From the NCBI GenBank assembly GCA_037447655.1, contig JBBHKE010003324.1, positions 62,001 through 126,000 on the forward strand: a DNA stretch of 64,000 bases. The letters are read 5' to 3'. This stretch comes from Zygnema cylindricum (lineage: Eukaryota > Streptophyta > Zygnematophyceae > Zygnematales > Zygnemataceae). The position numbers and the translations under genes are program-made. This document shows positions 4,579-53,835 of the stretch, piece by piece. Each line of letters opens with the position of its first letter. Positions within the stretch are counted from its first letter, which is position 1. The notes below the pieces were generated by a model. The model saw nothing but the letters and a program-made list of their open reading frames with translations. It made no database searches and was not told the DNA's origin.

Positions 4579-4580
4579 TA

Positions 4581-4592
4581 TGGTATCAAAGC
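4581..4592 (+). other. Gypsy primer-binding site
   Basis: TGGTATCAAAGC, two bases after the 5' LTR. It differs at one base from TGGTATCAGAGC, the complement of the 3' end of plant initiator tRNA-Met. This is the ordinary primer mode, unlike the copia elements in this window. Confidence 0.85.
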
Positions 4593-10378: not shown

Positions 10379-10407
10379 GAATGAAAGAGTTTTAACTGAG
10401 GTCAGTT

Positions 10408-10426
10408 AAAAATAAGGAGGGGATGA
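10408..10426 (+). other. Gypsy polypurine tract
   Basis: AAAAATAAGGAGGGGATGATG-type purine-rich stretch abutting the 3' LTR; the plus-strand DNA primer site. Confidence 0.75.
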
Positions 10427-25731: not shown

Positions 25732-25804
25732 GAGCTGGTGGCACAGTGGTTAGTGCTCTGACAGCTTAAGTTAAAGGTCCCAGGTTCGAGCCCTGGCCGG
25801 CTCA
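25732..25804 (+). tRNA. tRNA or tRNA-like gene, near-complete cloverleaf
   Basis: 73 nt. The acceptor stem GAGCTGG/CCGGCTC is fully paired with one G-U; the D stem is GCAC/GTGC around AGTGGTTA; the T stem CCAGG/CCTGG encloses TTCGAGC. A-box TGGCACAGTGG and B-box GGTTCGAGCCC match consensus, and TTTT follows at 25806. The anticodon arm CTGAC-AGCTTAA-GTTAA pairs at 4 of 5 positions and has G where U33 is expected. The apparent anticodon would be CTT (Lys). It is either a tRNA pseudogene, a SINE head or a functional outlier. Confidence 0.55.
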
Positions 25805-28536
25805 CTTTTCCCTAGTATAAGACATACCGAATCCCGGATTTCTAGGAGATCCCATCACCCACATATAATACATATCCAGAAGTGGATCTCCTTATCGGAG
25901 CATCACCATAACTGGCATCACTCCAAGTAGTGATATCAGTATTCTCCCCACCCAAATGCAACCATAGATCCCTAGTTCCTATCAAATATCTAACGACTCT
26001 CTTAGCTGCCTCCCTATCCCTCTTAGTGGGAGCATTTAGACTTCTACTCAGCACTCCTACAGCTGCAGCTAAATCCGGCCGGGTACAATTTATAAAATTG
26101 CTTAGACTTCCCACTACTTGCTTGTAAGGAATAATGTGCATGAACTTATGTTTTTCACGAGATAATTCCTCGTCTAAGACTATGAATCCTTCTTCTTCAC
26201 TCCCCTCACTTCCCTTCTTCAACTCCATTGGATTTGTACAACTATTAGCTTTATCCATTTGAAATTTTCAAGCTTGTTCCCTATTGCTTCCTTTTATTCA
26301 ATCTTATAATCTTTCTTTTTCGATCTCTTTCTACTTGAATTCCCAAAATATATTTTGCTTCCCCCATATCCTTTATTTCAAATCTCCCCTTAAGATCGAT
26401 TTTCAGTTTATTAATTTTTTCCATTGATTTACTTAAAACAAGCAAATCATCAACATAAATTGCAATAAATACAAAACCTTCTTTATCTTCGAAAACATAG
26501 ATTGAGTGATCTAAGCTGATCTGGATATATCCCAAACCGGTAAGAAACTCATCAAGCTTCTTTTTCCACTGTCGAGGCGCCTGTTTGAAACCATTAAGAG
26601 ATTTAATCAGCCGGCATACCTTACTCTCCTCTCTTTCCTCCACAAACCCTTCGGGTTGTCGCATGAAGATCTCTTATTCCAATTCTCCATGCAAAAAGGC
26701 TTTCTTGATGTCCATCTGGTGCACTTCCATGTCTTCCGCTGCTGCCAGGCTGAGAAGTATGCGGACGGAGGGAAATCTGACGACCAGGGCAAAGGTTTTC
26801 TCGTTGTCAATTCCCTCCTTTTGTGTAAATCCCTTTGCTACTAATCGGGCCTTGTAGCGTTCGATTGTGTTATCTGGATTCAGTTTTAATTTGAAAACCC
26901 ACTTACAACCGATTGGTTTCCGGTTAGGTGGACAATCCACCAGCTCCCAAGTATCGGCTGCCATAATTGAGGCCATCTTCTCATTGATGGCTGTCTTCCA
27001 CCGGTTTCTTTCTTGACAAGTCATCGCCTCTCCATAAGTCTGAGGTTCATCTATATGAGATAGTTTTGTTACCTTGTTATTAACCTGTTTTTCTTGCAAT
27101 CTTTTGCTACTTCTCCTCCCCCTTCAAAATCTGAGGCCGGAATAGATGGTTTTCGTAAATTCTTTCGAAGAATCTCGGCTTCTCCCCTATCCCTTGATTC
27201 TGAATCAATTTCCACCACGTCTTCCGCTTCGGGTAGAGTTGTCACTGGAGTTTCCACATCCGAGTTTTTTTTGGTCTGATTTGTACCTGCAAGAATGTCA
27301 TCGTCTCTAAAACCTGGATAGTTAGGAAGCTCAAAGTCATCTGAATTTTCTGACTCAAATTTGATTTTTACTCACTTTGTATATTTGAAGGGATCCACAG
27401 ACTTTCCTTCATCCATAACTACTAGATGCTTTACTAAGATTATATCTTCCCTTTTTAGATCATAAACTCTATATCTTTTAACATCCTCATCATATCCTAA
27501 TAAGTATCCCAGTTTTCTTTTAGGATCTAGCTTCCAATTAGACCGATCTGTATCTAGACTGAATACTTGACTACTGTAAACCTTTAAGTGAGATATGTCT
27601 AGTTTTCGGCTTGTCCATCTCTCATAAGGTGTTTGATCTTTTATAGTTGAAGTAAGAACTCTATTTTTGAGGTAATTAGCAAAGTTCATTGCTTCTGCCC
27701 AAAACCTTTTGCGTATCTTCCTATTTGACAACATACTTCTAGCACTATCACTTAGTCTTCTATTTAACCTTTCAGCTACCCCATTCTGTTCCGGGTTTTC
27801 TGGAACTGTCTTTTGGTGTTGGACCCCATCTTCCCTCAAAAAATCCTCAAACTTGTTAGAAGTATACTCTCTACCATTGTCACTCCTTAGTCTCTTGATT
27901 GGAGTTTCATGGAGTTTTTCGCTCCATGTTATATATTGTCTAAAACAATCCTGAGCTTCAGACTTGTTTTTCAAAAAATACACCCGGGAATACCGAGACC
28001 AATCATCAAAGATAGTCATCATAAATCTCTTCCCCCCCAGTGATGGCACTTTAGCCGGTCCCCAAATATCTGTATGTACTAGATCTAGAATTTTTCTCCC
28101 TTATAGGTGGCTGTTTTAGGAAAGGGTAATCTGTGTGCTTTACCTTGAGCATATCCATTACAATCATTTATATTATCACTTTCACTGAACAGAATCCCTT
28201 CCACCACTCCCATCTTTTTCATCTCTCTTAACTTATCTAGATTCAGATGCCCAAGCCTCTTGTGCCACATCATACTATCATGAACACTAGCAAAATAATG
28301 TTTCTTCGTTTAATTACTTTTAAAATCACCCTAAACATCCCATGGCTACCTTTCTCAGCAATGAAATAGACATCCTCCTCAAAACTAGCAGTAAAGACTC
28401 CTTCCCTAGTGCTAGTAAAAAAACCCTTATCATCTAATACAAATGTAGAGATGAGGTTTTTCTTCAGCTTTGGAATAAACAATACATTGGAGAATGTTAC
28501 TATGGATGTCTTTCCTTCTACTAACACTTTCATATG

Positions 28537-29581
28537 TGAAACTCTGAGACCTCCATAAGTCCTTAGAGTGGACAGCTTCCAAGAAGCCTCTAGGATAACC
28601 CTGACCCCTTTGTGTTTCAGCAAAAACAACTGCCACCTTGGCAGACAAAAACTCTGACCACCTTCACCCCTGTGAAGGCAAGACTCCCCTTAGTCGATAG
28701 CAAAAAGAATCTCTGAATTTGCTCCCCTGAGCAGTAAGTTATGGAGGGTCAAAGTTGACCTTTTGTACAGAAGCTCTCTGGGAGAGAGGATCCTATCTCC
28801 TAATTTTTCTAAGTCCTATCTCTCTCACAGACTCTATCTACTGATGTACAGAACTAATCAGATTTCTCCTCCGTACATAAAAGTACAGTCGCCGGTGTAC
28901 TTTATGTACGGAAATTGTACAACATGGCCTTAATGTCGACACATGTCATATCCGGATTCGGTGCCGTAATCTCCGGAGATACCACGATCCAATGTAATCT
29001 CGCCACGTGTCATCGGATGTGGCGATGCCCACAAACCGCCGAATTCTTCTTCCGAGATCTCGGCGCGAATTCCGGCCGTCCGATTAAATTCATGATTGTA
29101 GCCGTAATAAATACATGCGCAGTATTTGTTTTGCTTACGAAATCAATGCGCAGTATTGATTTCTTATCCATACCACAATTCGTACTTTTACACTACCAGA
29201 TCTATGTATCCCGTTAACAGTTACAGTTAAATGATTTATCCTACGAATTAATGTTTAAGTAATTATCGTACTATATAATACGAAAGACTACATCTAGACT
29301 TAACGGCTAAGGCTACCGGCTAATTACTGTCTGTCGGCCGGCAGGTACTAGGATCAAATCCTGTGGCCGGCATATACCTTTTAGTAAATAATCCCTTAAC
29401 TAATATAAGTTTCCCGTAAACCTCAAGATAGCCTAGGTAGGCATGGCTCTAGCTTCCTCTCCAATTTCTCAATGACTGCGACAAGTTTGAGAGTTTGGAG
29501 AGAGAAGTTAGAGGTAGACTGCCTCGACTTCTTTATTTCTATTCAGACCTAGAAAATAATTTAAAACCATTAATTTCTACA
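28537..29581 (-). repeat. Solo LTR (family 2) inserted in copia B
   Basis: The minus strand begins TGTAGAAATTAATGG (29581) and ends AGAGTTTCA (28537), like the 5' LTR of B. It sits between codons for VDL and KVLVEGK of the protease region. The flanking 5-mers GATCT and CATAT agree at 3 of 5 positions, consistent with an aged target duplication. Confidence 0.85.
29296..29382 (+). other. tRNA-like block in solo LTR of B (antisense)
   Basis: GACTTAACGGCTAAGGCTACC (A-box-like), AGGATCAAATCCTG (one change from the B-box) and TTTT at 29379-29382. Confidence 0.55.
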
Positions 29582-30820: not shown

Positions 30821-30834
30821 GGTGGGCCCATAAC
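30821..30834 (-). other. Copia B primer-binding site with gag ATG
   Basis: Minus strand GTTATGGGCCCACC: a 14-base match to the complement of the anticodon arm of plant initiator tRNA-Met (GGUGGGCCCAUAACC). The ATG in it is the Gag start. It lies one base from the LTR. Confidence 0.85.
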
Positions 30835-30835
30835 G

Positions 30836-31901
30836 TGAAACTCTGAGACCTCCATAAGTCCTCAGAGTGAATAACTTCTAAGAAGCCTCTAGGATAACTC
30901 TGACCCCTTTGTGTTTCAGCAAGAACAAATGCCACCCTGGTAGACAAAAACTCTGACCACCTTCACCCTTGTGAAGGCAAGACTCCCCTGAGTCGATAGC
31001 AAAAAGAATCTCTGAATTTGCTCCCCTGAGCAGTAAGTTATGGTGGGTCAAAGTTGACCTTTTGTATAGAAGCTCTCTGGGAGAGAGGGTCCTATCTCCT
31101 AATTTTTCTAAGTCCTATATCTCTCACAGACTTTATCTAGTGATGTACGGAGCCAATCAGATTACACTTCCGTGCACAAAAGTACAGCTGCCGGTGTACT
31201 TTGTGTATAGACATTGTACGACATTGCCTAAATGATGACACATGTCATATCCGAATTTGGTGCAGTAATCTCCGAAGATACCACGATCCAATGTAATTTC
31301 GCCACGTGTCATCGATGTGGCGATGACCACAAATTGCCGAAATCCTCTTCCGCGATCTTGACGTTAATTCCGGCCGTCCGATTAAATTCACATTAAATCG
31401 TAGCCGTAATAAATACATGCGCGGTATTCGTTTCGCTAAATAATTAAATGCCCGGTATTCGTTTCGTATCCGTACCGTAATCCGTACTTTTACATTACTG
31501 GATCTATATCTCCCGTAAAACTGTTCCTGTTAAATGAACTATCCTACGTAATAATGTTTAACTAATTATCAAACCCTGTAATACGTAACACTATATCTAG
31601 ACTTAACGGTTAAGGCTACCGGCTATTGGCTGATTACCGTCCGTCAGGTACCAGGATCAAATCCCGAGGTAAACACATATTCTTTTAGTAAATAACCCAA
31701 TGGTAAATAAACCAATATATATATTTCCCGTAAACCTCTGGATAGCCTAGGTAGCCATGGCTCTAGCTTCCTCTCCAACTTCTCAATGACTGCGACAAGT
31801 TTGAGAGTTGGAGAGAGAAGTTAGAGGTAGACTGCCTCGGCTTCTTTCTATATTTCTATTTAGATCTAGAAAATAATTTAAACCGACCATTAATTTCTAC
31901 A
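30836..31901 (-). repeat. Copia B 5' LTR
   Basis: Starts TGTAGAAATTAATGG at 31901, ends AGAGTTTCA at 30836. Long hairpin 31751-31838; antisense tRNA-like block 31598-31686; leader hairpins at 31020-31031 (GCTC/GAGC), 30981-30994 (GACTC/GAGTC) and 30961-30976 (CTTCAC/GTGAAG). Confidence 0.88.
31598..31686 (+). other. tRNA-like block, LTR B (antisense)
   Basis: GACTTAACGGTTAAGGCTACC (A-box-like), CAGGATCAAATCCCG (B-box with one change) and TTTT at 31683-31686. Confidence 0.6.
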
Positions 31902-32224
31902 GGCTCCTTGTCAAGAAGTTCGTGCTTGATTGAAGTACGACTTCAATCAAGCTTTCAATGGCGGATTCAATGGGGGCTTGGATGAATCGTACAAATTTCT
32001 TTTAAACATCGCGAAATTTCCGTACATTATAACCATAACGTACAAATTTTTTTCAAACTTCATGCGCGCAAATGAATAGTCTTTTTTCTAAATTTCCGTT
32101 TATTATAAATGTACGGTTCATCTGTACGTTTATACCGTACGAAAAGTATACGCATTTAACGAAAAATTCAAAATCATAAAAAAAAAACAAAATTTTGTAA
32201 AAATGTCAAAATCCGTACGAATGA
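31902..32224. other. Non-coding interval
   Basis: Contains a short inverted repeat CGTGCTTGATTGAAG...CTTCAATCAAGC near 31921-31954. Otherwise nothing recognised. Confidence 0.4.
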
Positions 32225-32915
32225 GACATCTATACCTAAGGATGAAGTTCCATTAGGACATTCTGTAATTGTACGGCCAACATTACGGAATGCTACAATT
32301 TGAACGAAGTTCCATTGCGCAGAGTTTGTAATACACGTGTTAGCAGAAGTGTGGTGCCACGTCGCTACATATTTGAAAATGAAAATCGTCAAAGATTTTC
32401 ACACCGACCAAAAATCTTCATTTGCGTACCATGTCCGTGCGTACCAAGTCATCGTTCAACACAACTTTTGTCCTCTTTGCAGACGCCTTGCTAGATACCA
32501 CCTCATTTATTTATGGTTTTGTTTTTACACGTGACGAATGAGCGCTGCCAAAAATAATGTGACGATTGGGAGCTAACAAAAATAGCGTGACAAATTGCGT
32601 TCCAAAATTTCGTTTATATTTTCTGTTGGATTTATGAATGCGTATATCGTGTGCGATTTTTTTTGATTTCCGTTGGTTGCCATCTTGACACGTATGCTCA
32701 TTATCCAACGTGTCGCTCAATTTTTTGTGTAATTGCTAGCTACCTCGCGAGGTACATCACCAATTACAGAAAACTTTCGAAGCGAATGCTTCGCGAAAAA
32801 ATATCCAACGGTCATTGTTAACTCTCAGACTTTTGGAGAATATTGGCAAGATTCTCTGCAATGTTATTTTCCACATAAAAACAAAATATGAAGTACACTG
32901 TAGTAGGGAGAGGTC
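32225..32915 (-). repeat. Dispersed repeat, copy 2 (uninterrupted)
   Basis: Inverted counterpart of 2366-2842 plus 11437-11620. It shows what the locus looked like without the hAT element, though the two copies have diverged. Confidence 0.6.
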
Positions 32916-33739
32916 TGAATTTGTGTAAACAACCTCACTTTTTGTCTAATGGAACTTCACCATAATACTTTATTGAATTTTTGTAAATCCCGTCATATAG
33001 ACCATAGTTCAAAAATAGGTGAAAGTAGGCTCATACAATATGCTTATTGTACGCAAAACATACAATATGGTTTTAAGACCCATATTGTAATGGTCGTAAA
33101 ATGAAAAATAATAGTAACAGGGTTGAGTTGCACATTGATCGATAGAGAATTAAACGTCATGTCTAAATTTTGAAAAACATTCGGAAAAGTTTTTATTTTT
33201 TCGTGAGTTTTGAGGTATTTTTTATTTAAACCGTCAGATTGTGACGATCGGACGATCTCTGATCAAAGTAGCGATCTAAGAAGGTCATTGGAAAAGGCCA
33301 TAATACAAGTTACGATAAGACTTACGTCCGCGTTTTCGGGTTTTTTTCTCGCGGAATTTCATCCTACGCCGTGTCAGTTCACTTAAAAAAATCGTCCAGC
33401 GCATGGGCTGTCCTATGATGATACGCCAAATTCGTACGTTCGTACAGAAGTGTGCACAACACACACACATACAGTATGCTTACTCTACGCGAGGTTTTGT
33501 GCCAAGTTTTGTGCGCCTACCAAAGGCCTACCATAAAAACACCTATTTTTAAACTATGATCAAGACACATCGACCAACCTATGCGGGTATGAAACCACTG
33601 GATTTACAAAAATCCAAAAAAATACAAATGTACAGTATCGTCGGATTTTCTATCCTATAAGGTTCGGCAGGCTGAACATTGTTTTATTTTATTTAGCGGG
33701 TTTGGGGTTGCAGATTTATGCCTCATTTCGGTGCCGATT
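32916..33739. other. Non-coding interval
   Basis: No gene, RNA or transposon ends recognised before the copia E boundary at 33740. Confidence 0.4.
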
Positions 33740-34731
<992 letters not shown>

Positions 34732-34869
34732 TGTTGAAAAATGTAATTTATATCTTGTCTCTATTTTATTTTTGTTTCTAACAAGAGAGAGAGAGAGAGA
34801 ATGAAAGATACGCCATGGCTGCCGCGCTATTTAGAAAGGTGGTAGACTAAAGGAGAGGGCATTTTTACC

Positions 34870-34948
34870 AAAATGCCGCCCTTGACCGGATTTGAACCTA
34901 GGTCCTACCAACCACATTTAATGGGACGCCTTAACCATTAAGTCCTCA
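34870..34948 (-). other. tRNA-like block, E 5' LTR (antisense)
   Basis: Minus strand: GACTTAATGGTTAAGGCGTC (A-box-like), then AGGTTCAAATCCGG with an exact B-box match (34888-34898), then TTTT at 34870-34873. Confidence 0.65.
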
Positions 34949-35464
34949 ACGCAACGATGAACTCACTAGATGTGATACGTACTTAAATTGTGACACGACG
35001 GCAAATTCACACCAAACTCACTACGAGACACATGTGAAACAATTCATGCACGAACGCGAATTTGAATCGTGTAAATTTAACTGATCAAAAGGTCGTCGTT
35101 GCAACCGCCACCCAAATGAGCTTTTGGCGGCATTTGGAGATAGCATCACACACTGCCACGTGGCATCACACTATTGGATACCAGAGAAGATGGGAGGAAC
35201 CATGGCTCTCGATTTGACAGGCGTCACCTTGAAGGCCATGTCGTACAATGGTCGTACAACAAGTATATCGGCCACTACCCTTTTTGTACTGTATAGTGTT
35301 CCCAAAGGACTAGGGTTTAGTAATAGGTAGCTGAGAGTAGGCAGACTCGGACTTAGTAATATTTGAGGCGCCTCTCTCTAGGTGACCTTCTGTATCAGTA
35401 GGTTGTTTTTGGCCAGCCATAACTAATTGCTCTAGGGAGCAAATTTAGTGATTTTATTTGCGTT

Positions 35465-35499
35465 GGACTCAAAGGAGTCTTTTCCTCACAAGGGTGAGG
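35465..35499 (+). other. Two tandem leader hairpins, E 5' LTR
   Basis: GGACTC-AAA-GGAGTC(T) and CCTCAC-AAG-GGTGAGG. Stem 1 keeps the GACTC/GAGTC core; stem 2 differs in sequence from element A but still pairs. A third, GCTC-TAGG-GAGC, lies at 35429-35440. Confidence 0.75.
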
Positions 35500-35623
35500 C
35501 TGGTGAGAGTCATTGCCTGCGAGGGTGGCAGTAATTATTTGGAAACCAAAGTGGGTTGATGTTATCCTAGTAGCTACTTATGAACTGTGCATTTTGTGGG
35601 GTAACGGAGCTCACAAAATTTTA

Positions 35624-35638
35624 GGTTATGGTTCCACC
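35624..35638 (+). other. Copia E primer-binding site with gag ATG
   Basis: GGTTATGGTTCCACC directly after the LTR; two changes from GGTTATGGGCCCACC. The ATG (35628) opens the Gag remnant MVPPPMVNI. Confidence 0.75.
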
Positions 35639-38600
35639 ACCTATGGTGAACATAACGGATAGTTTAGGCGTTATCTATAAGGGAAAAAGAGGTGGACAAA
35701 CGAACGAACAAGAAATGGGAGCTCCAAATACAGGCGTTTGTCACTTTTGTAGAACATTGGGACGTTACATGGCTGATTGCACCAGATTGGAAGAATTAAG
35801 TATCAAATACGGAAAGGTTGACAGCACCAATGAGGAGATGTAAGACATTCTCCAAAATATAAAATTAGATAATGAAGTGGAAACACCAAGCAAGCAATAA
35901 TGTGCATTTGGAGGTAAATATGAACCCTCGGAGGAAGAGTGGATCATCGATTCGAGAGCATCTATGCATATGTGCAAAGACAAAAGGTGGTTTACAAAGT
36001 TGAGGAAGATCCCCACTGTTGAGTTAGAATATGGGGATGGTAGAGTTGTGACTACAAACCATGTAGGATCAGTGGATCTAAAGGTCATAGTTGAAGTGAA
36101 AGTCTTTATTGTCACTCTTTCAAATGTGCTATATATACCACAGCTTAGCAAAAATATGATCTCTATAGCTATCTTAGATGAGAAAGATTTTGTTACAAGA
36201 ACTTAGAAAGGAAGGTTCACTGTTAGTTTTGATAGTGTGGTTTATTTCATAGCTGAAAAGGGTAGCCAGCGAATGTTCAGAATTGTATTTTGCAATGAAA
36301 AGAAAGGTGCCCTCTACTCTTGTGTAAGTGATATTATGTTGTGGCATAAGAGACTTTGACATGTGCATCAAAATAGATTAAGAGAAATGAAAACTAAGGG
36401 AATAGTGGATGGGATAAAGTTTGAGTAATCTAAAAATATAGATGATTGTATTGGTTGTGCATAATGGAAGATCCATAGACTTCCTTTCCCAAATGTTACC
36501 ACTTATAGGAGAGAGAAGGTCTTAAGGCTTGTATACACAGATGTGTGGGGACCAACGAGATATCTCTCACACGGAGGGAAAAGGTATATGCTGACCTTCA
36601 CCGATGACTGGTCTAGATATACTAAGGTATACTTCATTAATCATAAGTGTTGCGGTACTTTAAGGAATATAAAGTTTGGAGTTTCACGAGACTTTCCTAA
36701 AAGAAGTAAGAAGTGATAATGGGGGGAGTACACCTCAAATGAGTTTAAAGATTTTTTAATAAACGAAGTAATTCATCATCAAAAAATTGTTCAAGATAAT
36801 CCGGAGCAAAATGGAGTAGCCAAAAGACTAAATAGAACACTTGGTGATATGTCAAGGAGTATGCTAACTGATAAGAGGATAGGCTTGCGGTTTTGGGCGG
36901 AAGCTATGAATTACGCAAACTTCATCAAAAATAGGATTCTAACTTCAGCTAATAAAAATGAAACTCCATATGAGAGGTGGACCGACAGAAAACCACATTT
37001 ATCTAGTGTGAGAGTGTTTGGAAGTCAAGTGTTTAGCTTAGATAATGACAAAAGAAAGTGGAAATTAGAAGGAAGAGGAAAGCATGCGGATATGATGAAG
37101 ATAGCAAAGGATACCGAGTGTATGATCTAAAGAAAAAATATATAATCTTAGCCAAACATATTGTAATTATGGATTAAGTAAAATCCATAGATCCGTTTAA
37201 ATACACCAAAGAAGTTAAAATCAGGATATTCCCGGATCTAGATTTTAATCTTGACCTTGAACTAATTCAGGAAGCACACAAGGAAGAAATTGAATTTGCA
37301 GGAAATTCAAATGAAAAGAAAGTGGAGGAGACACATGATGCTCCACTTCAAACTGAAACTGAAGAAGAACCACAGTCGGCGGATAGGGGAGATGAAGTTG
37401 TACCCAAACGGAATCCGAGGATGCCCTCAATATCGGCATCAGAATTTGAGGGAGGACCGAGAATAACCAAATGTATTCAAGAGAGAATGGCCAATAGTAA
37501 GTTAACCAAGCTGTCCCATCCGGAAGAACCTAAAACATATTTGGAAGCCATAAATAGCTTGGAAGGGGATAGATGGAAAACAACTATTAATGAGGAAATG
37601 AGTTCCATAATGGAGGCAAACACATGGGAGTTAGTAGATTGTCCTCCGGATAGAAAGGCAATTGGTTGTAAATGGGTTTTTAAACTAAAATTGAACCCAG
37701 ATAATTCTATAGAAAGGTACAAGGCTAGATTGGTAGCAAAGGGATACACTCAAAAGGAGGGAATTGATTATGAGGAGACCTTTACACCGGTAGTCACGTT
37801 TTCCTCAGTTAGAATCCTTCTAAGTATAGCTGTAGCGGAAAGCATGGAAATACATCAAATGGACATAAAAGCTGCTTTTCTAAATGGGGAACTAGAAAAA
37901 GAAATTTTCATGAAACAATTGGAGGGATTTATAAAGGAGGGAGAAAAAAGTAAGGTGTGCAGGTTGATTAAATCACTATACGCGCTGAACAAGTGCCCCG
38001 ACAATGGAACATAAAATTGGATGAGTTCCTTACTGGTCTGGGTTACATACGGATCAGCTCAGATCACTCAATTTATCTTTTTGAAGATGAAAATGGTGCA
38101 ATTTTCATTGTAGTGTATGTGGATGATTTGTTTGTCTTGAGTAAATCTATTGAGAAAATAAATCAACTAAAAAGAAGTTTGAGTAGTCGCTTTGATATCA
38201 AAGACTTAGGAGAAGCTAAGTACATTTTGGGAATACAAATGGAAAGGGATAGAGACACGAAAATAATCAGACTAACTCAAAAGGAAGCAATCGCTAATAT
38301 GCTTCAAAAATTTCAGATGGACCAAGCCAATGGTTGCTCTACATCTATGGAACTTAAAAGAGTTAGTGAGGGGGGTGTTGAAGGGGGAGTAATAGTCCTA
38401 GATGATCAGATTACTCTAGGAGAACAAAAATTTATGCACAATATTCTCTATCGACAAATTGTAGGAAGCTTTATCTACATTATCAACTGTACACGTCCAG
38501 ACAAAGCGACTGTTGTACGAGTTCTTAGCAGAAGTCTGAATAATCCGAGAAAGAAAGACTGAGAGGCAGCAAATAGGGTAATGAGATATCTTGTGGGAAC

Positions 38601-39112
38601 AAGGGAATTATGGTTAAATCTGGGAGGGGAGAATACTAACATCACCACTTCGAATGATGCTAGTTATGGAGATGTGCCACTCAGAAGGTCAACTTCTGGA
38701 TATGTTTTGCAAATTCGGCTAGGTGCATGCTGCTGGAGCAGAAAACAACAGAAAGTTGTCGCTCAGTTTACAATGGAGGCTGAGTATATGGTATCATGCG
38801 CAGCTGTGAAAGAATTAATGTGGGTGAAATCTTTGCAACAAGAATTGGGATTTATAAAAAAATAAATTGCAAAACATTTTTTGTGATAACTAGGCAGCAA
38901 TTACAATTGCTGCAAATCCCAAACATCATTTTAAGGCCAAACATATGGACATAAGACTTAGCTTTGTGAGAGAAAAAGTTGAAAATAAAATCATCAAACT
39001 TATGTACAAACTGAATGGGGAAATGTTGGCTGATATGATGACCAAAGCAGTTCCCTCACCAAAATTAGTTTATTGCAGAAATGGTTGTGGGTTGAGAGAA
39101 AGAGAGAGCTAA
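35628..39112 (+). pseudogene. gag-pol: Copia E gag-pol, gag centre deleted
   Basis: About 15 N-terminal Gag residues join directly to the region before the zinc knuckle (CHFCRTLGRYMADC, 35740), so the Gag core is deleted. Protease WIIDSRASMHM (35940; Gly of DSGAS replaced by Arg); integrase pieces 36330-37140 (DRKPHLSSVRVFGSQVFSLD); reverse transcriptase 37560-38150 with VVYVDDLFVLS (38115); RNase H 38640-39112 with ASYGDVPLRRSTSGYV and MEAEYM, ending at TAA. Stops and frame changes occur near 35840, 36205, 36660, 37130, 38014 and 38562. Confidence 0.87.
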
Positions 39113-39125
39113 AAATTAAGGGGAG

Positions 39126-39172
39126 TGTTCAAAAAGGTAATTCATATCTTGTCTCTATTTTTGTTTAGACTC

Positions 39173-39245
<73 letters not shown>

Positions 39246-40059
39246 AAAGACACGTCACGGCTACTCCGCTATTTAGAAGGTGCAGACTAAAGTAGAGGGG
39301 CATTCTACCAAAATTGTGCCTTCTGCTAGATTTGAACCTGTCATCTCTGGATTCTATGTATTCGAACGCCTTAACCATTAAGGCACTCAAGTTGATAAAT
39401 ATAGAGGATTTGATACGTACTTAAACTATGACACAATGGCAAATTTACACTGAAATGACTACTAGACGCATGTGAAACAATTCATGCACGAACGTGAATC
39501 TTAACCGTGTAAATTTAATTGACGGACGGTATTCGTTCCAGCCGCCACCCAGAATGCACTTTTGGCGGCCTTTGGAAATAGCTTCACGCAATGCCACGTG
39601 GCGTCACACTATTTGGATACCACAGAAGATGGGAGGAGGAACCATGGCTCCCAATTTGACAAGCATCACCTTGAAGGCCATGTTGTACAATACTGGTACA
39701 ATAAGTACATCGGCCACTGTACCTTTTGTACTACATAGTGTTCCTATTCGACTATGGTTTAGTAATAGATAGCGAAGAGTAGGCAGACTAGGACTTAGTA
39801 ATATTTGAGGCTCCAAGTGACCTTCTGTATAAATAAGCTGTCTTTGGCCAACCATAACTAATTGCTCAAGAGAGCAAATTCGGTGATTCTTTTTGCGTCG
39901 GACTCGGAGGAGTCATGTACTCACATGAGTGAGGCTGGTGAAAGTCATTGCCTGCGAGGGTGGCACTAATTATCGGGGAAACCAAAGTGGGTTGATGTTA
40001 TCCTAGTGGCTCCTTGTGAACCGTGCATTCTGTGGGGCAACAAAGCCCGCAGAATTTCA
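39126..40059 (+). repeat. Copia E 3' LTR
   Basis: Starts TGTTCAAAAAGG after AAAATTAAGGGGAG, ends AGAATTTCA. (GA)n 39177-39241; tRNA-like block 39310-39387; GTAC motifs 39686-39733; leader hairpins 39901-39933 (GACTCGGAGGAGTC and CTCACATGAGTGAG). Confidence 0.87.
39310..39387 (-). other. tRNA-like block, E 3' LTR (antisense)
   Basis: Minus strand: a D-arm-like GCCT-TAATGGTTA-AGGC hairpin, ACAGGTTCAAATCTAG (B-box), and TTTT at 39310-39313. GTGCCTT and AAGGCAC at the two ends are exact complements 71 nt apart. Confidence 0.65.
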
Positions 40060-40120
40060 GAATTGCCTTTGTATCAACAAATATGCACGACTACAGTACA
40101 GTACCGAATCTTGCGTTTTT

Positions 40121-40379
40121 AGGTGTGAAGGTCGTGTGTGAAGGGGTCCACGTCGCCTTTCACTCCTTTCACTCCAATTTGGCTTTACGACGCCTCGCGC
40201 CGCGCGGCGCGTCGTAAGTATAAATATGCTTATGGTTTTTTTCTCATTTGTGTTTTTTTTATATAAAAAAAACCCAACCAACAACCTTATGACCCTAAAA
40301 ATCTGTGGTACTCGGGCGGTATTTTACAAAGTGTGAAAGGTCATAGTACATTTAGGACCCCTTCACACCCTTCACACCA
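40121..40379. repeat. MITE-like inverted-repeat element with GC-rich core
   Basis: GGTGTGAAGG...GTGTGAAGGGGTCC at the left and GGACCCCTTCACACCCTTCACACC at the right are inverted copies (about 25 bp). Near the centre is a strong hairpin, TTACGACGC...GCGTCGTAA (40185-40217). The superfamily is undetermined. Confidence 0.6.
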
Positions 40380-40413
40380 CGGGCGAGAACACTAACGAAC
40401 CTTACCTGTACAG

Positions 40414-40926
40414 TACACCGCCAATCGCTATCACTATGAGAGTAAATAACGCTAATTCAGTGCCCTATTAAAAAAAAATTAAACCTGAAATACAATCCAT
40501 AATTATATTTTTTTCTTTACGCCTTTTAGGGTGCTATTTTTAGTTAGTGTTAATACGGAAGTACACTGCGATTTTTATCGTGTGGTGTACGGACATGGTT
40601 TTTGCGTACCATAATGAACTTTTTGATATAAAAATGTAAAAAAATCATGTAATGTAATTACGCGCACATGTGAATTTGCACTAAGAAAAGAGACGCAAAC
40701 TCGAATATTCAGATTTTGGTGTACGAATTGTCAGGTCTTGTACGCGTACATATATAGATGTAGACATCGATACAGCGGGTATTTATTATTCGAAAAAAAC
40801 CCAAATTAGAGTTTGTGATTTATAAGTATATATGTTTTTTTATATTTTATTTTTTCCCAATTGACGTTAATAACACTATTTTTTTTTACGCAATTTATTC
40901 CTTTACTCTAATAGTGATTGGCGGTA
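40414..40926. mobile_element. MITE-like element, TACACCGCCAATC family
   Basis: Left TACACCGCCAATCGCTATCA and right ATAGTGATTGGCGGTA are inverted repeats of the family found at 12992-13530. The interior is AT-rich and non-coding. Confidence 0.6.
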
Positions 40927-41149
40927 AATTGCAGTTGCAAATTTAGGTTACGAATTCTGTAACTAACAAAGACTCGAAATGGTTAGGCAAGTTTAGATTA
41001 TGATATGGATTTCGATAGCTTTAAATCGAGATTCGAGTAAAATAGAAAAAACACATGCAATTTTTCGGCCAAAATTATGTGCCTAATGATTAAGTGCCAT
41101 GATTTTGACATTTCGTGCAGTCCAGCTGAAAATTGTGTTGATGTCCAAT
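40927..41149. other. Spacer before element C
   Basis: Nothing recognised. Confidence 0.4.
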
Positions 41150-41873
41150 GACGACTATGAGGAACGAAAACACTCTGACTGACACCCCTATGTAGCCTAG
41201 ACTCCCCTGAGTCTGCAGCAAAAAGAAGAATCACTGAATTTGGTCAACTGAGTTGATAGTTATGGATGGCCAAAGTTTGCCATTTATACAAGGTGCTCTC
41301 TGAGAGAGGCAGCTACCTACTAGAAAAATTCTAAGTCCTAAACCCCTCTCTTAACCCTCTATTTTTGAGGTACGGACAAATCATATTACTATATAGTACA
41401 TAAACGTACAGGTACCGCTCTACCTTTTGTACGGCCAAAACAAATGTCAGATTCATTTGTTTCGTGCGGGATTGAGTCCGCACTGAATTTAACCTGTTCT
41501 ATGATGTTACATTTACATTTCCGTTAATCGGATTACGAGACGTAACATACTTTAAATACGAGTCACACCCTATATACTCCAGCAAACATCTACGACAAAG
41601 TGGTTAGAGCGGACAGCTACGCCACGCTCTACCGGTCGGGGGTTCGAGTCTTGATGGACTCAACCTTTTTGTAGAGAGTGACTTAACGTCACTCTCTAAC
41701 CCTGTCCATGGAGTAGAGGCAGCCATGGCTCCATCACTTTCTCTCTCTCCTTCAGTGACTACAATAAGTATAGGGGTAAGAGAGAAGAGATGAAGACAAG
41801 CTGCCTGCATGTTCTTTTTTCCGCAAATATATTAAAACCTAAAAAATAACAAATAAAACTATTTATTTCAACA
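41150..41873 (-). repeat. Copia C 3' LTR, truncated
   Basis: Begins (minus) TGTTGAAATAAATAG at 41873, adjoining the purine tract GAAAATAAGTGGAG. Long hairpin 41718-41808; tRNA-like block 41588-41670; leader hairpins and GATTCTTCTTTTTGC near 41200-41235. Similarity to the 5' LTR fades near 41150. Confidence 0.8.
41588..41670 (+). other. tRNA-like block, C 3' LTR (antisense)
   Basis: AAGTGGTTAGAGCGGAC (D-loop/A-box-like), GGGGGTTCGAGTCTTG (B-box-like) and TTTTT at 41666-41670. The acceptor stem is not paired. Confidence 0.6.
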
Positions 41874-41889
41874 CTCCACTTATTTTCTA

Positions 41890-44800
41890 GTCTAATTTAA
41901 TTTTTCTTTTAACCCGCATTTTTCTCGACAATTTTTTTAATTTAGGAGAGAGCACAGGTTTCGTCATCATGTCAGCCACCATTTCTTCATCAAGTCTATA
42001 CACAAGATTTAAAATTTTATTTTCAACTTTTTCTCTCACGAAACTTAATTTTATGTCCATATGCTTTGCTTTGAAATGGTGTTTTGGATTGGCTACAATT
42101 GCAACTGCTGCTTGATTATGACAAAAAACTTAATGCATCCCTCCTTCATATTTCCCAGTTCTTGCAACAACGATTTCACCCACATTAGTTTTTCTTTTAC
42201 AGCAGAACAAGTCGCCATATACTCAGCCTCCATAGTAGACTAAGCAACCACCTTTTGTTGCTTATTGCTCCAACAGCAAGCACCTTCCCCCACATTCAAA
42301 ACATATCTAGAAGTGCATCTTCTCATAGGTGCATCCCCATAACTGGCATCACTCCAAATGGTGATATTAGTGTGCTCCCCTCCTAAATGCAACCATAATT
42401 CTTTGGTTCCAACCAGATATCTCATGACTCTCTTGGCTGCCTCCCAATCTCTTTTTCTAGGATCGTTAAGACTCCTACTGCTGCCGCTATGTCCGGCATG
42501 GTACAGTTCATAAAATAGATTAAACTTCCTACGACCTGTCTATAAGGAATAAACTTCATAAACTCTCTCTCCTCAGGACTCATCTGTTCATCTAAGATTA
42601 TCACTCCTCCTTTTACACTCCCATCACTTTATTTTTTGAAGTCCATGGGAGTGGTACAACTGTTAGCTTTCTCCATTTGAAATTTCTCAAGCATAGTTCG
42701 TATTGTTTCTTTCTGAGTGAGTCTTATGATCCTCTTCCCCCTATCTCTTTTCATTTGAATTCCCAAAATATATCTTGCCTCCCCTAAATTTTTCATGTCA
42801 AATCTGCTTTCTAAGATCTTTCTTCAACTTATTGATCTTTTCCAAAGACTTAGTTAACACTAGCAGATTATCCATATAAATTGCAATAAAAATCACAATA
42901 TCCTCATCTTCAAACATATAGATAGAATTTTCATAACTGATCCTGATATATTATAGACTAGTAAGAAACTCATCTAGTTTCTTATTCTACTGTCAGCGAG
43001 CCTGCTTAAGTCCATATAAGGACTTTATGAGCCTGCAGACTTTGGTCTCTTCTCCTTTATCCACGAACCCCTCGGGTTGCCTCATGAAAATTTCTTCCTC
43101 TAACTCACCATTAAGAAAAGCAGTCTTAATGTCCATCTGGAGTATTTTTATATCTTCTGCTGCTGCCAGACTGAGGAGAATCCTTACTGATGGGAACCGA
43201 ACAACTGGAGCAAAGGTCTCCTCATAGTCAATCCCCTCCTTTTGGGTGAACCCCTTTGCTACCAATCGAGCCTTATATCTCTCAATGGTATTATCTGGGT
43301 TTAGTTTTAGATTAAATGCCCAATTACACCCAATGGGTTTTCTGTCTGGAGGACAATCCGCTAGTTCCCAAGTATTTGCTTCCATGATGCAGGCCATTTC
43401 ATCATTTATGGCTCTAATCCATCTTTCTTTCTCCGGACTATTTACTGCCTCCGAGTAAGAATGAGGCTCAACTGGGTGAGATAACTTAGTAACATTTATA
43501 AGCGGCCTGTTTTTCCTATATCCTTTTGCTGCTCTTTGTCCCTCCCTAAAAATCCGAAGCTGGAATGGATGTAAGTCTTCGATTTCTTCTCACGTTCTCA
43601 TCAACTCCTCGTCTACGGAATCGGGTTCTGGCCCCGCTTCTTCTATCTCCTCTAGGTCCATAGGAGTATGTGAGGTTTCCGGTGAGTCTTTGTATCTCGG
43701 ATCTCCCTTGAATCTGCAATCACGGTTTCACTCATGTCCCTTTCGGGAACGACCGAGTTCTCCTCACTTTCGGACTCGAATCTGATTTTTATCTTCTTTG
43801 TATATTTGAAGGGATCAAATGACTTTCCTTCATCCATGACAACTAGGTGTTTGACCAGGATGATATCCTTCTTTGCTAAGTCATAGACTCTATACCCGTT
43901 AACATCCTCATCATATCTCACAAAGTATCCAGGTTTTCCCTTAGCATCTAGTTTCTAGTTTTTCCTATCCGTGTCAAGACTGTAAATTTGGCTACCGAAC
44001 ACTTTAAGGTGTGAAATATCCGGTTTCCTTCCAACCCATCTCTAATAAGGTGTCACTCCCTTTACAGCTTAGGTAATGACTCTATTCTCAATGTAGTTGG
44101 CATAGTAAGTTGCCTCTGCCCAAAATCTCTTTCCTATTTTTTTGTCGGCCAACATACTGCATGCAATATCTCCTAGTGTTCGATTCAACCTCTAAGCTAC
44201 CCCATTTTGTTCCGGTTTATATGGTACAGTTTTTTGGTGGTGTACTCCCTCATTTCTCAAATATTCCTCAAACTGGTTAGAGGTATATCCCCCCCCATTA
44301 TCACTCGTTATCCTCTTAATGGGGGTTTCATGCAACTTCTCACTCCATGCTTTATATTCTTTGAAGTAAGTTGATGCTCAAGACTTTGTTTTTAGAAAAT
44401 ATACTCTAGAGTTTCTAGACTAGTCATCAGTTATTGTCATCATAAAAATTTTTCCTCCTACCGAAGGTACTTTTGCAGGTCCCCAAATATCTGTGTGGAC
44501 CAAATCTAATACTTTCTCACCTTTATATGTGGCGACTTTGGAAAAGAAGAGTCTGTGAGCCTTACCTTAAACACAGCCACTACAATCATCCCTCATTTCA
44601 TTGTCCCCAAACTGAATGCCTTCTACTACCCCAAGTTTTTTCATTTCCCTCAACCTATCAAAAAGTACATGCCCAACCGCTTATGCCAAATCATCAACTT
44701 AGGAACACAAACATAGTAAAAATTCTTCTTTTGATTACTCAGGTTAAGCTTAAATATTCATATGCTACCCTTATCAACCGTGAAGTAAACATCATCCCCA

Positions 44801-45717
44801 TACTTAGGTGTAAAGACTCCGTTTCTAGTGAAGGTATCAAACTCTTTGTCATCTAACATAGATGTAGAGACAAGATTTTTACTCTGCTGAGGAATATAGA
44901 GCACATATAAGAAAGTGTGTATAGCAGTCTTACCCTCCACTAAGACTTTCAAATCTACTGTTCCCACTAGATATGTAGCAACCACTCTCCCATCCCCATA
45001 CTCTATTTCTACAGTAGGGATTTTCCTTAGCTTGGTGAACATGTCCTTGTCACGACACATATGCTTGGATGCACCTAAGTCGATGATCCATCCTTCCTCT
45101 CGAGCTTCTCGAATTGCTCCAAGGGCACAATTTTGTCTCCGAGGGATCTCCTTCTCCACCAGACTCTCGTCAAGAAGAAGCTCCCCATCCTCCTCAGAAG
45201 ACTCATCTTCGGTTTCTCCTGTCACTTTTATGACCACAAGTGTTTTTTTTCTTCCCTCTAGAAGAACCTCCTCCACGGTTATCTTGGAGCCTCAGCTCCG
45301 ACAACTTGACACAATCCGCGATAAAGTGTACGGCTTTTTGCAAAAATGACAAAAGCCCTTTGGGGGCCTTGGTCCTCCACACTGATATCTTTCCCTTTTG
45401 TATGGTTTTTCGGGTCTTTCCCCCATCGGTCCCCTCTTGCAGCTAGAGCTTGAATGCTCTTTCCTCCTTTCGTAATCTCGATAGTGTTTTCCTGCACAAG
45501 TATCATCCGGACCATCATATCCCTCCTTTGCAGAAGCAGTCGCTGCTGCATGAAACCTTACTCCTCCAAATCCTGGCGGAGTTCCTAAAGGTAGACATTT
45601 CACTTGTCCACTAACGATACCCCAGTATCGTTTTTCGCACAAAGCTCTCATCATCATGGCTTCCCAATAGATGAACCCAATTCATTTGAAGGTGGGCACC
45701 CTAGAGGGTGGGCCTAT
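41890..45717 (-). pseudogene. gag-pol: Copia C gag-pol, broken
   Basis: The Gag start codon within the primer site is ATA here (45717-45715). The Gag N-terminus (ALCEKRYWGIVSGQVK) joins through SAKEG directly to the region before the zinc knuckle, lacking the Gag core. Protease is near 45100 (LGASKHM, lacking the catalytic Asp). Integrase fragments 44850-43900; reverse transcriptase 43397-42840 with [19 protein letters not shown]; RNase H 42604-41890 with WSDASYGDAPMRRCTS. Many stops and frameshifts. Confidence 0.85.
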
Positions 45718-45721
45718 AACC
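45707..45721 (-). other. Copia C primer-binding site, ATG mutated to ATA
   Basis: Minus strand GGTTATAGGCCCACC, one change from the 15-base complement of the initiator tRNA-Met anticodon arm; the change destroys the start codon. Confidence 0.8.
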
Positions 45722-46722
45722 GGGTATTTTGTGTCCTCCATTGGACCACAGAATATAGGAAGCCTGTAGATAGTTTTTAACTAACTCACTTCAAGCCACA
45801 ACTAGTGCTGTCCAGGAAGGCAAAATGACAGTTTGAATGCACCTTTATGTAGCTTAGACTCCTGTGAGTGCGTAGCAAAAAGAATCACTGAAAACGGCCA
45901 ATGAGCTGATAAGTTATGAGGCAGTATAAATGCCAATTTGTACAAACTCTCAAAGAGAGAGGTGACTACCTAACAAAATTTTCTAAGTCCGGATTTCCTC
46001 TAATAACTTCTATCTACCAAAGTATAGATTAATCAGATTACCGTATTGTACCAAAAAGTACTACTACCCGTGTACCTTTTGTAGACATATGTACGACAAG
46101 GCTATTAAGTGGACTCGTGTCCGTTTTTCACTCGTCCGTAATTTCCTCGAAATTCCCGTGACCAAATGTCATCTCTCCACGTGGCTCCAGGTCATGCCAC
46201 GTCACAAAATGCCAAAGTGACCATTCTAGAATCTCGGCGAAGACGTATGCCGTTGGATAAGAACCGACATTAAATGTCGTCCATCAAAACTAATGTTAGA
46301 TTCATTTGTTTCGTGCAGGATTTAGTCCGCACTGAATTTAACCTGCTTTATGATGTTTCATTCATATTTCCGTTAATCGGATTACGGGACGTAATATACT
46401 TTAAATATGAGTCACACCCTATATACTGCAACGAACATCTACGACAGACTGGTTAGAGCGGACGACTACGCCACGCTCTATTGGTCGGGGGTTCGACTCC
46501 TATTGGACTCAACCTTTTTGTAGAGAGTGACATAAGGTCACTCTCTAACCCTGTCTATGGAGCTGAGGCAGCCATGGCTCCATCACTCTCTCTCTCTCCT
46601 TCAGTGACTACAACAACTATGGGGGTAAGAGAGAAGAGATGAAGACAAGTTGCATGCATGTTCCATTTTCCGCTAATATATTAAGACCTAGAAAATAACA
46701 AATAAAACTATTTATTTCAACA
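45722..46722 (-). repeat. Copia C 5' LTR
   Basis: Minus strand TGTTGAAATAAATAG at 46722 to about 45722. Carries the long hairpin (46566-46660), tRNA-like block, GTAC cluster (near 46080), and leader hairpins near 45840-45920. Confidence 0.87.
46440..46519 (+). other. tRNA-like block, C 5' LTR (antisense)
   Basis: CAGACTGGTTAGAGCGGACG, then GGGGGTTCGACTCCTA (B-box-like), then TTTTT at 46515-46519. Confidence 0.6.
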
Positions 46723-47737
46723 TAAGGTATTTTCTAGTTCTGAATTTATTAGTAAAAATAGGAAAAGTAAAAGCGCAGGCAGCCTGCCTCCACCTCTTCC
46801 CTCCACCCCCCATACTTGTTCCTCTTCCCTCTACCCCCAATACTTGTTGTAGTCACTGAAGGATAGAGAAGGTGGTGGAGCCATGGCTGCCTTAGCTCCA
46901 TAGGCAGGACTTAAGAGTGACCTAAGTCACTCTCAACAAAAGGTTGAGTCTAGGGACTCGAACCTCCAACCGGCAGAGCGTGGCGTAACCGTCAGCTCTA
47001 ACTGGTCTGTCGTAGAAGTTGGTTACATTGCATGGGAAACGATATTTGTTTAAACATTGAACAGAACACTAATCTGATTAACGTAACTGTGAAAAGGAAA
47101 CATAGAGACATAACAGATTCAGTGCATACATCTAATCCGCCACTCGAAATAAATGAGTCGGACATTTATTTCAACGGCGTACATTAAAAGTCGGTCTTCA
47201 TTCGACGACGCTAATCGTCGCCGAGGTCTTGGAACGGTCACTTTGGCGATTTTCGGACGTGGCGTGACCTAGGGATACATTGTAGGATTAAATTGAGCAG
47301 CGGGGATCCAGGACGACATAAGGACAATTTAGACGGCGACACACGTCCTCTCCATGGCCTTCTCGTACAGAGGTCGTACATAAAGTACATCGGCCACAGT
47401 ACTTTTTGGTACTTTACAGTATTTTGATAAGAGCGTACTTTATTAAATAGGGTTTGTGAGAGGGATGTGGGACTTAGAATATTTTTTAGATAGTCATCTC
47501 TCCCTTGGGAGCTTTCTATAAATTGGCATCTTTGCCGGCTCATAACTAATCGGTTAGTTAGTCGTTTTCAGTGATTCATTTTGCTACGAACTCAGGGGAG
47601 TCTAGGCTGCACAAAGGTGCAATCAAACTGTCAGTTTGCTTTCTTGGGTAGCAGTGGTTGTGGCTTATAGTGGGTTAAGGTTAAAACTATCTAGAGGCTT
47701 TTGTATTCTGTAGTCCAATGGAGGACACATAATTGCA
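46723..47737 (+). repeat. Copia D 5' LTR
   Basis: Starts within the conserved AAGGTATTTTCTAG, ends ATAATTGCA. A partial 30-bp duplication extends the hairpin arm (CCTCTTCCCTC...ATACTTGTT twice, 46793-46855). tRNA-like block 46938-47012 (minus; B-box 46955-46964, T4 at 46938-46941). Confidence 0.85.
46938..47012 (-). other. tRNA-like block, D 5' LTR (antisense)
   Basis: Minus strand CCAGTTAGAGCTGACGG, GGAGGTTCGAGTCCC (B-box-like), TTTT at the end. Confidence 0.6.
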
Positions 47738-47752
47738 GGTTATGGGCACACC
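47738..47752 (+). other. Copia D primer-binding site with gag ATG
   Basis: GGTTATGGGCACACC; one change from GGTTATGGGCCCACC. The ATG at 47742 starts Gag (MGTPSKVPTFNGSGF). Confidence 0.85.
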
Positions 47753-52265: not shown

Positions 52266-53140
52266 CTGTATACGGTATCCGCTGTACTAAAATTTTAGGC
52301 GGCCCTTAACCCCTAACCTACAAGGCTACAGTACATAGCCGCCTACACTGGCAGAAAGACTTTCTCTTTTCGAGGAGCTCTACTTTTAGGGCATTCCTTC
52401 AATTTTTTGAAGGTCCTTCCTTTCTTTTATTTTCTTTGTTTTTTCTTTCCCCTTCCTTCCTTTACCGTATTCCACCTTTTTCTTTAGTTATATTTGTCTT
52501 CCACAGGAGAAGTACTTTGAGGGAGGTTTGGAAGGCTTATCGAGTCAGCAACTCGATTTTTTTGACCTAATCGTACTATCTGTGAGCATTCTCCTCCTTG
52601 TTTTGTCGATTTGTTTTTGCCTCTTATAACTTAACTTCCTCCCTTTTTGTATCTCCATCCTCTCTCTCTCAAGTTCTTCGCTGTTCCTCTTCCTCTACTT
52701 CGGCTCTCCCTTTGCCTTTCTCTGTCCTTCTCCTCGTTCTTCTCCTCCCCCCCTCTCCGTCTCCCTCTCTGTTTCCTCTTCCATTCTTTCTTGCACTTCT
52801 GTTGGCTGACTGACTATTCCCTGCCCTCCGATTCCTCGCCTTCTCCCTCTCTTCCTTCGCCATTTCCTGCCCTCTCATCGTCCATCCTCGCGCTCTGTTT
52901 CACTTCCTCTCACATTGTCTCCTCACGTCCTGTCTTCCCTTTTTATCCCTCTCCCTCCACATTTACTCTCCTCCTCTTCCCCCCCTTTCTCCTGAGAGAA
53001 GGGGGGGGGGGGGAGACCCAGAGGGAGGAGAGGTTACAGTTTTGTAGAGGAAATGACAATCAGCTCAAGCCATGTATACATCCTTCTGTCACCTTTTGCA
53101 GTTTGAACCTGTCCGGCGTAATTGTCTTTGTCTGACAGCC
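52266..53140. promoter_or_regulatory. Pyrimidine-rich region upstream of PABP
   Basis: Long CT-rich stretches (52400-52480, 52640-52990) and a G12 run (53003-53014). It probably includes the PABP promoter and 5' untranslated region, but no TATA box or start site can be fixed. The 162-codon frame at 52647-53135 is a product of CT-rich composition. Confidence 0.4.
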
Positions 53141-53191
53141 TCACCTCTCTCTCTCTCTCTCTCCCTCTCTCTTTCTCTCTCTTTCTCTCTT

Positions 53192-53223
<32 letters not shown>

Positions 53224-53245
53224 TCTCTTTCTCTCTTTCTCTCTT

Positions 53246-53279
<34 letters not shown>

Positions 53280-53312
53280 CCTCTCCCTCTCCCTCTCCCT
53301 CTCCCTCTCCCT

Positions 53313-53404
<92 letters not shown>
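53141..53404. repeat. CT microsatellite with CCCTCT block
   Basis: (CT)n and (CTTT)n-type runs with a (CCCTCT)n stretch at about 53275-53325. A shorter CT-rich block recurs at 53570-53700. Confidence 0.9.
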
Positions 53405-53409
<5 letters not shown>

Positions 53410-53412
53410 TTT

Positions 53413-53555
53413 ACATACGCCTTCGCAATAGATGCCCCACTTCTAATGTTTTTCTCACTTTTCTGTCTTTTCCTTTATCTTTTCTTGTCCCTTTTTTTGT
53501 TGGATCCCTTCTGGTCTGACAGATAGCATGCCCTAGCCAGCAGTAGGACGAACCT
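53413..53555 (+). pseudogene. Decayed duplicate of PABP exon-1 edge
   Basis: ACATACGCCTTCGCAATAGA...TTCTAATG...GACAG-ATAGCATGCCCTAGCCAG parallels 53790-53890, ACACACGCCTATGCAACAGG...TTCTAATG...AGCAG-ATGGCGGGTCCTGGCCAG. The start codon is ATA and an in-frame TAG follows, so it is non-coding. It implies a tandem duplication of about 375 bp at the 5' end of the PABP gene. Confidence 0.65.
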
Positions 53556-53835
53556 CTCTTACTACCCTCTCTATTCTTCTCCCTCTCTCTCTCTCTCTTC
53601 TCTCTCTCACTCTCTCCTCCCCTCCCCCTTCCCTCTCCCTCGCCAACTCCCCCCCTCCCCCTCCCCCTCCCCCTCTTTCGCCCTCTTCCTCTCTCTCTCC
53701 TCCCCCCTTTCTCCTCCTTTCTCACCAATCACTCTCATGCGCGCTCTCTCTCCCTCCCTTTTCTCGTCCCGTTTTCTCTCTTTGCCTTAACACACGCCTA
53801 TGCAACAGGATTTTCTAATGTATCCTCCTTTTGTT

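Follow-up and report, generated by a model that had tools for sequence, protein, structure and literature searches.

Priming by half of an initiator tRNA-Met (tRNA-iMet) is already known from the retrotransposons copia, Ty5, Osser and Bryco, and a primer site inside Gag is known from Ty1. The passages of the literature on which we draw place priming at the tRNA anticodon region in Drosophila copia and yeast Ty5 (PMC10886601, citing Kikuchi 1986 and Ke 1999), name the fungal element Copia-28_PHord as a tRNA-iMet user (PMC10886601), describe half-tRNA-Met primer sites in the plant Copia lineages Osser, Bryco and part of Gymco-II (Neumann et al. 2019, PMC6317226), locate the tRNA-iMet primer site of Ty1 inside the GAG open reading frame (ORF) (PMC4974528) and, for HIV-1, study the link among primer choice, translation and encapsidation (PMC1797187). 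Here we describe a Copia family of Zygnema cylindricum, represented by four copies (elements B, C, D and E) in a stretch of 64,000 nucleotides (assembly GCA_037447655.1, contig JBBHKE010003324.1, positions 62,001 to 126,000 of the forward strand), hereafter the window. Its primer site adjoins the long terminal repeat (LTR), is complementary to the anticodon arm of a host initiator-type tRNA-Met and lies within the Gag frame, downstream of another in-frame ATG at the LTR end. Judged from the sequences, this upstream ATG, located in the loop of a predicted hairpin, is the somewhat likelier main start of Gag.

A scan of the window allowing up to three mismatches returned exactly four primer sites, against 0.66 expected in shuffled sequence. 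They lie at the four places named by a sequence-only reading of this DNA, including that of element C, where ATA stands for ATG. In the 352.8-Mb genome, GGTTATGGGCCCACC with at most one mismatch matched 10,444 times (5237 + 5207), compared with 17 (8 + 9) for a reversed-letter control; a search of viral contigs with a 17-mer gave no match. The motif is the exact complement of the host initiator-type tRNA-Met arm at canonical nt 26-40 in our own numbering (linear nt 25-39 of the 72-nt tRNA gene). The arm sequence, GTGGGCCCATAACCCACAGGTC, is contained in six genomic loci, each within a gene called tRNA-Met(CAT), and the complementarity proposed earlier is thus borne out by host genes. We take these genes to encode the initiator, judging their sequence against that of plant initiator tRNA. 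The primer site directly follows the LTR-terminal CA with no spacer, forms a 15-bp duplex when co-folded with the tRNA half, and is present as the exact 15-mer in all 30 copies found via Gag rather than via the primer site, all 30 belonging to one subfamily. The family thus displays the feature of half-tRNA-iMet-type Copia elements, an anticodon-arm primer site adjoining the LTR, and, because of this complementarity, its minus strand is probably primed by the 5' half of tRNA-iMet. Since the CAU anticodon forces an ATG into such a site, the presence of the ATG needs no explanation, but its in-frame position does. At 502 sites the sequence reads GGTTATH, a count that covers the ATG side only of a substitution comparison and carries no claim of extra constraint on the ATG.

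The family is a very abundant Copia LTR retrotransposon with some young copies. The Pfam domain PF14223 (Retrotran_gag_2) was detected in locus L037 (45.2 bits for a cut-off of 27, E 9.1e-12), and PF07727 (RVT_2), which we take to be the Copia-type reverse transcriptase, in element E at window positions 37322-38011 (E 6.1e-46). By eye count, 31 of 150 listed Gag matches, from 11,942 candidates, carry frames of at least 1440 amino acids. For 13 of 20 long loci we detected a second LTR copy whose match extends to 10 nt or less from the LTR end; these pairs are 90.5-99.7% identical (in two of them the match is partial, 80 and 474 nt), indicating that some copies are young. Two loci have an apparent tandem organization. 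C109:55498-66210 reads LTR-internal-LTR-internal-LTR; its three LTR ends are spaced by about 5346 bases, and GG comes after the first and the second. In L062 the second LTR is directly followed by TTATGGGC, as ahead of a primer site.

To describe the junction, we read 64 of 100 listed exact sites (60 plus four further loci); the sites are listed in contig order (C1-C46), so that they sample the exact sites rather than all 10,444 matches, and all the DNA comes from one genome. Starting at the primer-site ATG (AUG2), the frame gives M-(7 to 9 residues)-F[ND]G in 58 of the 64 sites, which confirms that this ATG is in the Gag frame. The sequence-only reading had gone further and made it the first Gag codon, with no leader, and had named what would tell against this. 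Full-frame relatives do carry a different conserved in-frame ATG (AUG1), located 24 nt upstream, within the LTR, which closes with ATGGAG-(12 nt)-CA, 20 nt in all. AUG1 is present in 59 of the 64 loci, with the frame open as far as AUG2 in 52 of these 59, and in 29 of the 30 Gag-anchored copies, with the frame open in all 29. Hence the family has the Ty1-like feature of an in-frame AUG within the LTR, upstream of the primer site. Few bases of the LTR end vary as little as those of ATGGAG, each of which is kept in 60-63 of 64 loci, and the subfamily N-termini predicted from AUG1 are MEDTELQV-, MEVSEFQV-, MEPIEFQV- or METTEFQV-, each continued by MGPPSRVP.F[ND]G. Neither does the statement that the next ATGs lie beyond FNG hold in general: the next ATG precedes F[ND]G in element E (MVPPPM) and in the subfamilies reading MGPPSRVPMFDG.

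Of 94 loci, 71 have a TATAAA or TACAAA box upstream of AUG1, between -236 and -215 (38 with TATAAA, 33 with TACAAA only). AUG1 is the first ATG after the box in 53 of the 71 boxed loci and in 26 of the 30 Gag-anchored loci, and the interval from -195 to -21 is free of ATG in 66 of the 94 loci and in 27 of the 30 Gag-anchored copies. If the box marks the promoter, a scanning ribosome would therefore meet AUG1 first in most boxed loci. One orphan copy (L050:660-760) has the same primer site after a different LTR end that lacks the hairpin described below; its Gag frame reads MGPPPWLPIFDGSNYHY and then a stop, and its two nearby upstream ATGs are out of frame. A gapped-pattern search for a second clade without AUG1 matched this copy alone.

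The LTR end (U5) is predicted to form an 11-bp hairpin, in which columns 9-20 of alignment A1 pair with columns 27-37 and a six-base apical loop, N-AUGGA, holds AUG1. The alignment comprises 59 distinct LTR ends (60 are distinct among the 94 loci; L050, of the other type, was left out). Paired cells account for 90.4% of 647, compared with 21.9-51.0% when one arm is slid, double-change cells number 95 where shuffles give 36.3, and covariation scores 0.432 where shuffles give 0.195 +/- 0.013, in a comparison that is inflated, as the tool warns, both by the model having been written from the same sequences and by their relatedness. Three of the five hairpin measures exceed every shuffle. The many double changes, including T-A/C-G at columns 10-36, T-A/A-T at columns 15-31 and T-A/A-T/G-C at columns 18-29, argue that the predicted hairpin covaries across subfamilies with AUG1 in its apical loop. 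Co-folds with the half-tRNA placed on the primer site keep the hairpin, which is flush with the primer duplex in five of eight leaders, one of the eight being L050, which has no such hairpin. In four folded leaders AUG1 was unpaired at 0.89-1.0 and the G of AUG2 at 0.00-0.24, while the A and U of AUG2 ranged from 0 to 1. Past the primer site (e.g., in L068), the primer-site GGGC can pair with GTG CCC, two Gag codons farther on, and AUG2 would then be partly hidden in free RNA; because one arm of this pairing is fixed by the tRNA, it lies beyond a covariation test.

On balance, we favor an explanation in which a half-tRNA primer site lies inside Gag, Gag is translated from AUG1 and the hairpin serves to display this codon. 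Gag would start in the last 20 nt of the LTR, in a Ty1-like arrangement, from an AUG1 presented in the apical loop of the covarying U5 hairpin beside the primer site. The primer site would then provide Gag codons 8-12 (V-M-G-P-P), and AUG2 would be an internal methionine, perhaps used as a second start by leaky scanning. The element's own contribution would be to have kept the primer-site ATG in the Gag frame. The use of both AUG1 and AUG2 is compatible with everything seen.

Several results weigh against this explanation. Regarding the hairpin, the number of pairs with a double change is 7, compared with 5.9 in shuffles (a value attained by 118 of 500), further pair types number 19, compared with 16.7 (reached by 41 of 500), RNAalifold retains only the top 3 bp of the stem on the same alignment, and single folds give z values of -0.23 to -3.08, beyond -2 in two of five. 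Regarding the start codon, the base at -3 of AUG1 is a pyrimidine in 49 of 59 loci, while AUG2 lies in the context GGTTATGG, with G at both -3 and +4 in every exact site. Some ATG occurs between -195 and -21 in 28 of the 94 loci. We considered the openness of the frame between AUG1 and AUG2 as coding evidence and rejected it, as it is nothing special: 52 of 59 loci are open in frame, compared with 46 of 59 and 59 of 59 in the other frames. Together with the strict TATAAA box being found in only 38 of the 94 loci, where the transcript start is itself a prediction, this slightly lowers the case for AUG1 and raises that for AUG2.

Selection points in the same direction. We computed the ratio of non-synonymous to synonymous polymorphism (pN/pS) on 20 representatives, drawn from the 74 loci that a frame and motif filter retained out of 94 (20 were dropped). 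In frame, the ratio is 1.16 over the first five codons following AUG1, against 0.71 and 0.93 in the two alternative frames; 0.58 over the five that follow the primer site, against 83 and 1.26; and 0.33 downstream from FNG, against 1.42 and 0.86. Protein-level selection is thus seen only downstream of the primer site and not in the upstream codons. Because the hairpin binds the stretch between AUG1 and AUG2, the test is blurred there.

The strong context and downstream constraint are the features expected if AUG2 were the main Gag start; in that model the annealed half-tRNA would block translation, acting as a switch. AUG1, with its weak -3 position, would be mostly passed by, or ribosomes would re-initiate after the 4-codon ORF of those copies in which a TAA closes the AUG1 frame. 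We regard this as unlikely, yet it is the best of the alternatives. It is helped by the frequency of the TAA copies. Among subfamily-1 LTR ends matching either exact pattern, TAA is found at 126 of 753 5' ends (627 GAA) and, in a similar share, at 198 of 1416 other ends (1218 GAA), and one TAA copy, L046, whose 701-bp LTR match is 99.7% identical, keeps a frame of 1444 amino acids. On the other hand, AUG1 is conserved, is usually the first ATG after the box and is open in the four folded leaders, in which the G of AUG2 is mostly paired. Moreover, the TAA kind accounts for only 1 of the 31 full-length frames, compared with the 126 of 753 5' LTR ends (binomial P 0.025, for two samples drawn differently). 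The 30 other full-length frames are longer than that of L046, as expected if they run through AUG1, which was read as open directly in 6 and deduced from frame length in 24.

The TAA itself arises at LTR position -8 (column 34 of A1; L046:693 and window position 47730), which stands out by its variation (44 G, 11 A, 6 T and 3 C in 64 loci), a G to T change producing TAA in both 5' and other LTR ends. The two LTRs of one element can disagree at this position, as in L045 and L046 and, by coordinates, in C143 and C339. We rejected the idea that the TAA is a templated change of the 5' LTR only, with the inverted primer-site TTATG as its source: it is not confined to 5' LTRs, given its similar share at other ends, and GG follows 126 of 324 TAA ends and 627 of 1845 GAA ends (odds ratio 1.24, P 0.09). 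As to whether the TAA is inherited, LTR pairs about 5.35-5.39 kb apart among the listed matches are of every kind, including 5'TAA/3'GAA (C1, C109) and 5'GAA/3'TAA (C143, C339), together with a TAA/TAA pair in C565 and one shared LTR in C109, as judged by eye on few pairs.

A further alternative denies AUG1 any function as a start: the AUGG of the loop would dock the anticodon loop of tRNA-iMet (CCAU) and so place the primer, the in-frame ATG being a by-product. The constancy of the loop ATGGAG and the flush position of the hairpin in five of eight co-folds are both in keeping with it, and in retroviruses a U5-IR loop stands at the genome 5' end (PMC3601003). However, the pairing, by our own reading, involves four bases only, the interaction is putative, and docking leaves the near lack of other ATGs in the leader (27 of 30 Gag-anchored copies, -195 to -21) unexplained, which makes this proposal improbable. 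Finally, that a degenerate repeat matches a tRNA by chance or artefact could be entertained for the window copies, which are old since the LTR pairs of B and E are only 86% and 81% identical, but the genome-wide excess over the control and the exact site in all 30 Gag-anchored copies refute it almost beyond doubt.

The initiator tRNA-Met may act on this one short stretch of RNA in two ways: the whole tRNA would start Gag at one or two AUGs, and its 5' half, annealed over AUG2, would start DNA synthesis and shut that start. We regard this picture as tentative and rather doubtful, and a translation/replication switch at the primer site as purely inferred. As in retroviruses, the tRNA can serve as template for some of the primer site when a new copy is made; codons 8-12 of Gag, AUG2 included, would thereby also be rewritten by the host tRNA in each round. 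In this family a structural protein has codons that are antisense to part of a host tRNA, its anticodon arm, and the arrangement bears on an old question, how a retroelement allots a single RNA to translation and to reverse transcription. Within about 60 nt, this abundant family, some of whose copies are young, combines the probable start of Gag, the covarying hairpin of the LTR end and the primer site, which brings the question within reach of small leader reporters.

The positions of these features in the four window copies are collected in Table 1.

Table 1. Primer sites and AUG1 positions of the four window copies, with predicted hairpins (B, D) and LTRs (B, E).
Feature	Window position	Strand	Remarks
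Element B primer site, CGTTATGGGCCCACC	30821-30835	-	1 mismatch; ATG 30829-30831
Element B AUG1, in LTR end	30853-30855	-	frame open: MEVSEFHV-MGPPSRVPIFN
Element B LTR-end hairpin, columns 9-37 of alignment A1, AUG1 in predicted apical loop	30840-30868	-	model placed by offset from primer site
Element B 5' LTR	30836-31901	-	partner 28536-29581, 86.2% identical; BLAST match begins 30835
Element E primer site, GGTTATGGTTCCACC	35624-35638	+	2 mismatches; ATG 35628-35630
Element E AUG1 position	35604-35606	+	reads ACG; TAG at 35622-35624 closes frame
Element E 5' LTR as matched	34784-35621	+	partner 39226-40057, 81.2% identical
Element C primer site	45707-45721	-	1 mismatch; ATA in place of ATG at 45715-45717
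Element C AUG1, upstream in frame	45739-45741	-	frame open: MEDTKYPV-IGPPSRVPTFK
Element D primer site, GGTTATGGGCACACC	47738-47752	+	1 mismatch; ATG 47742-47744
Element D AUG1	47718-47720	+	MEDT, then in-frame TAA 47730-47732
Element D LTR-end hairpin position	47705-47733	+	model placed by offset from primer site

The sequence-only observation is thus partly confirmed, and its interpretation partly supported: the half-tRNA-iMet primer site and its in-frame ATG stand, and the claim that Gag starts there is doubtful. Elsewhere in the window, an LTR pair 98.6% identical over 968 bp surrounds long ORFs (3611-11393) that, by eye, we take to encode a Ty3/gypsy-type polyprotein. Long low-complexity repeats at 33791-34175 and 53139-53781 are alike in inverted orientation, the former encoding a serine-leucine run within an ORF. 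An ORF with three RRM stretches (55331-56023) is, as we guess, probably part of a host gene of the poly(A)-binding type, and a tRNA-Lys (CTT) gene lies between retroelement pieces (25732-25805).

The Zygnema family shares with Osser, Bryco and Gymco-II the Copia superfamily and a half-tRNA-Met primer site, a likeness drawn from the primer site rather than from placement in a reverse transcriptase/integrase tree; the passages on these lineages available to us (PMC6317226) mention neither an overlap with the Gag frame nor an LTR-end hairpin. In the parts of the open-licence literature that we consulted, we found no description of a primer-site ATG in the Gag frame, or of an LTR hairpin presenting the Gag AUG. 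With copia, Ty5 and Copia-28_PHord, the family has in common an anticodon-region primer site, and the likeness covers the primer site only, as far as the passages at hand go (PMC10886601). The retroviral U5-IR loop, named in PMC3601003, is likewise a stem-loop at the 5' end of the genome involving U5; in contrast, the Zygnema loop carries an in-frame AUG, and a role for it in priming is putative. Ty1, according to the passages of PMC4974528, resembles the Zygnema family in having its primer site within the Gag frame. It differs in that its site pairs with the 3' acceptor end of the tRNA, whereas the Zygnema family uses the anticodon arm, and for this reason the Zygnema primer site brings its own ATG.

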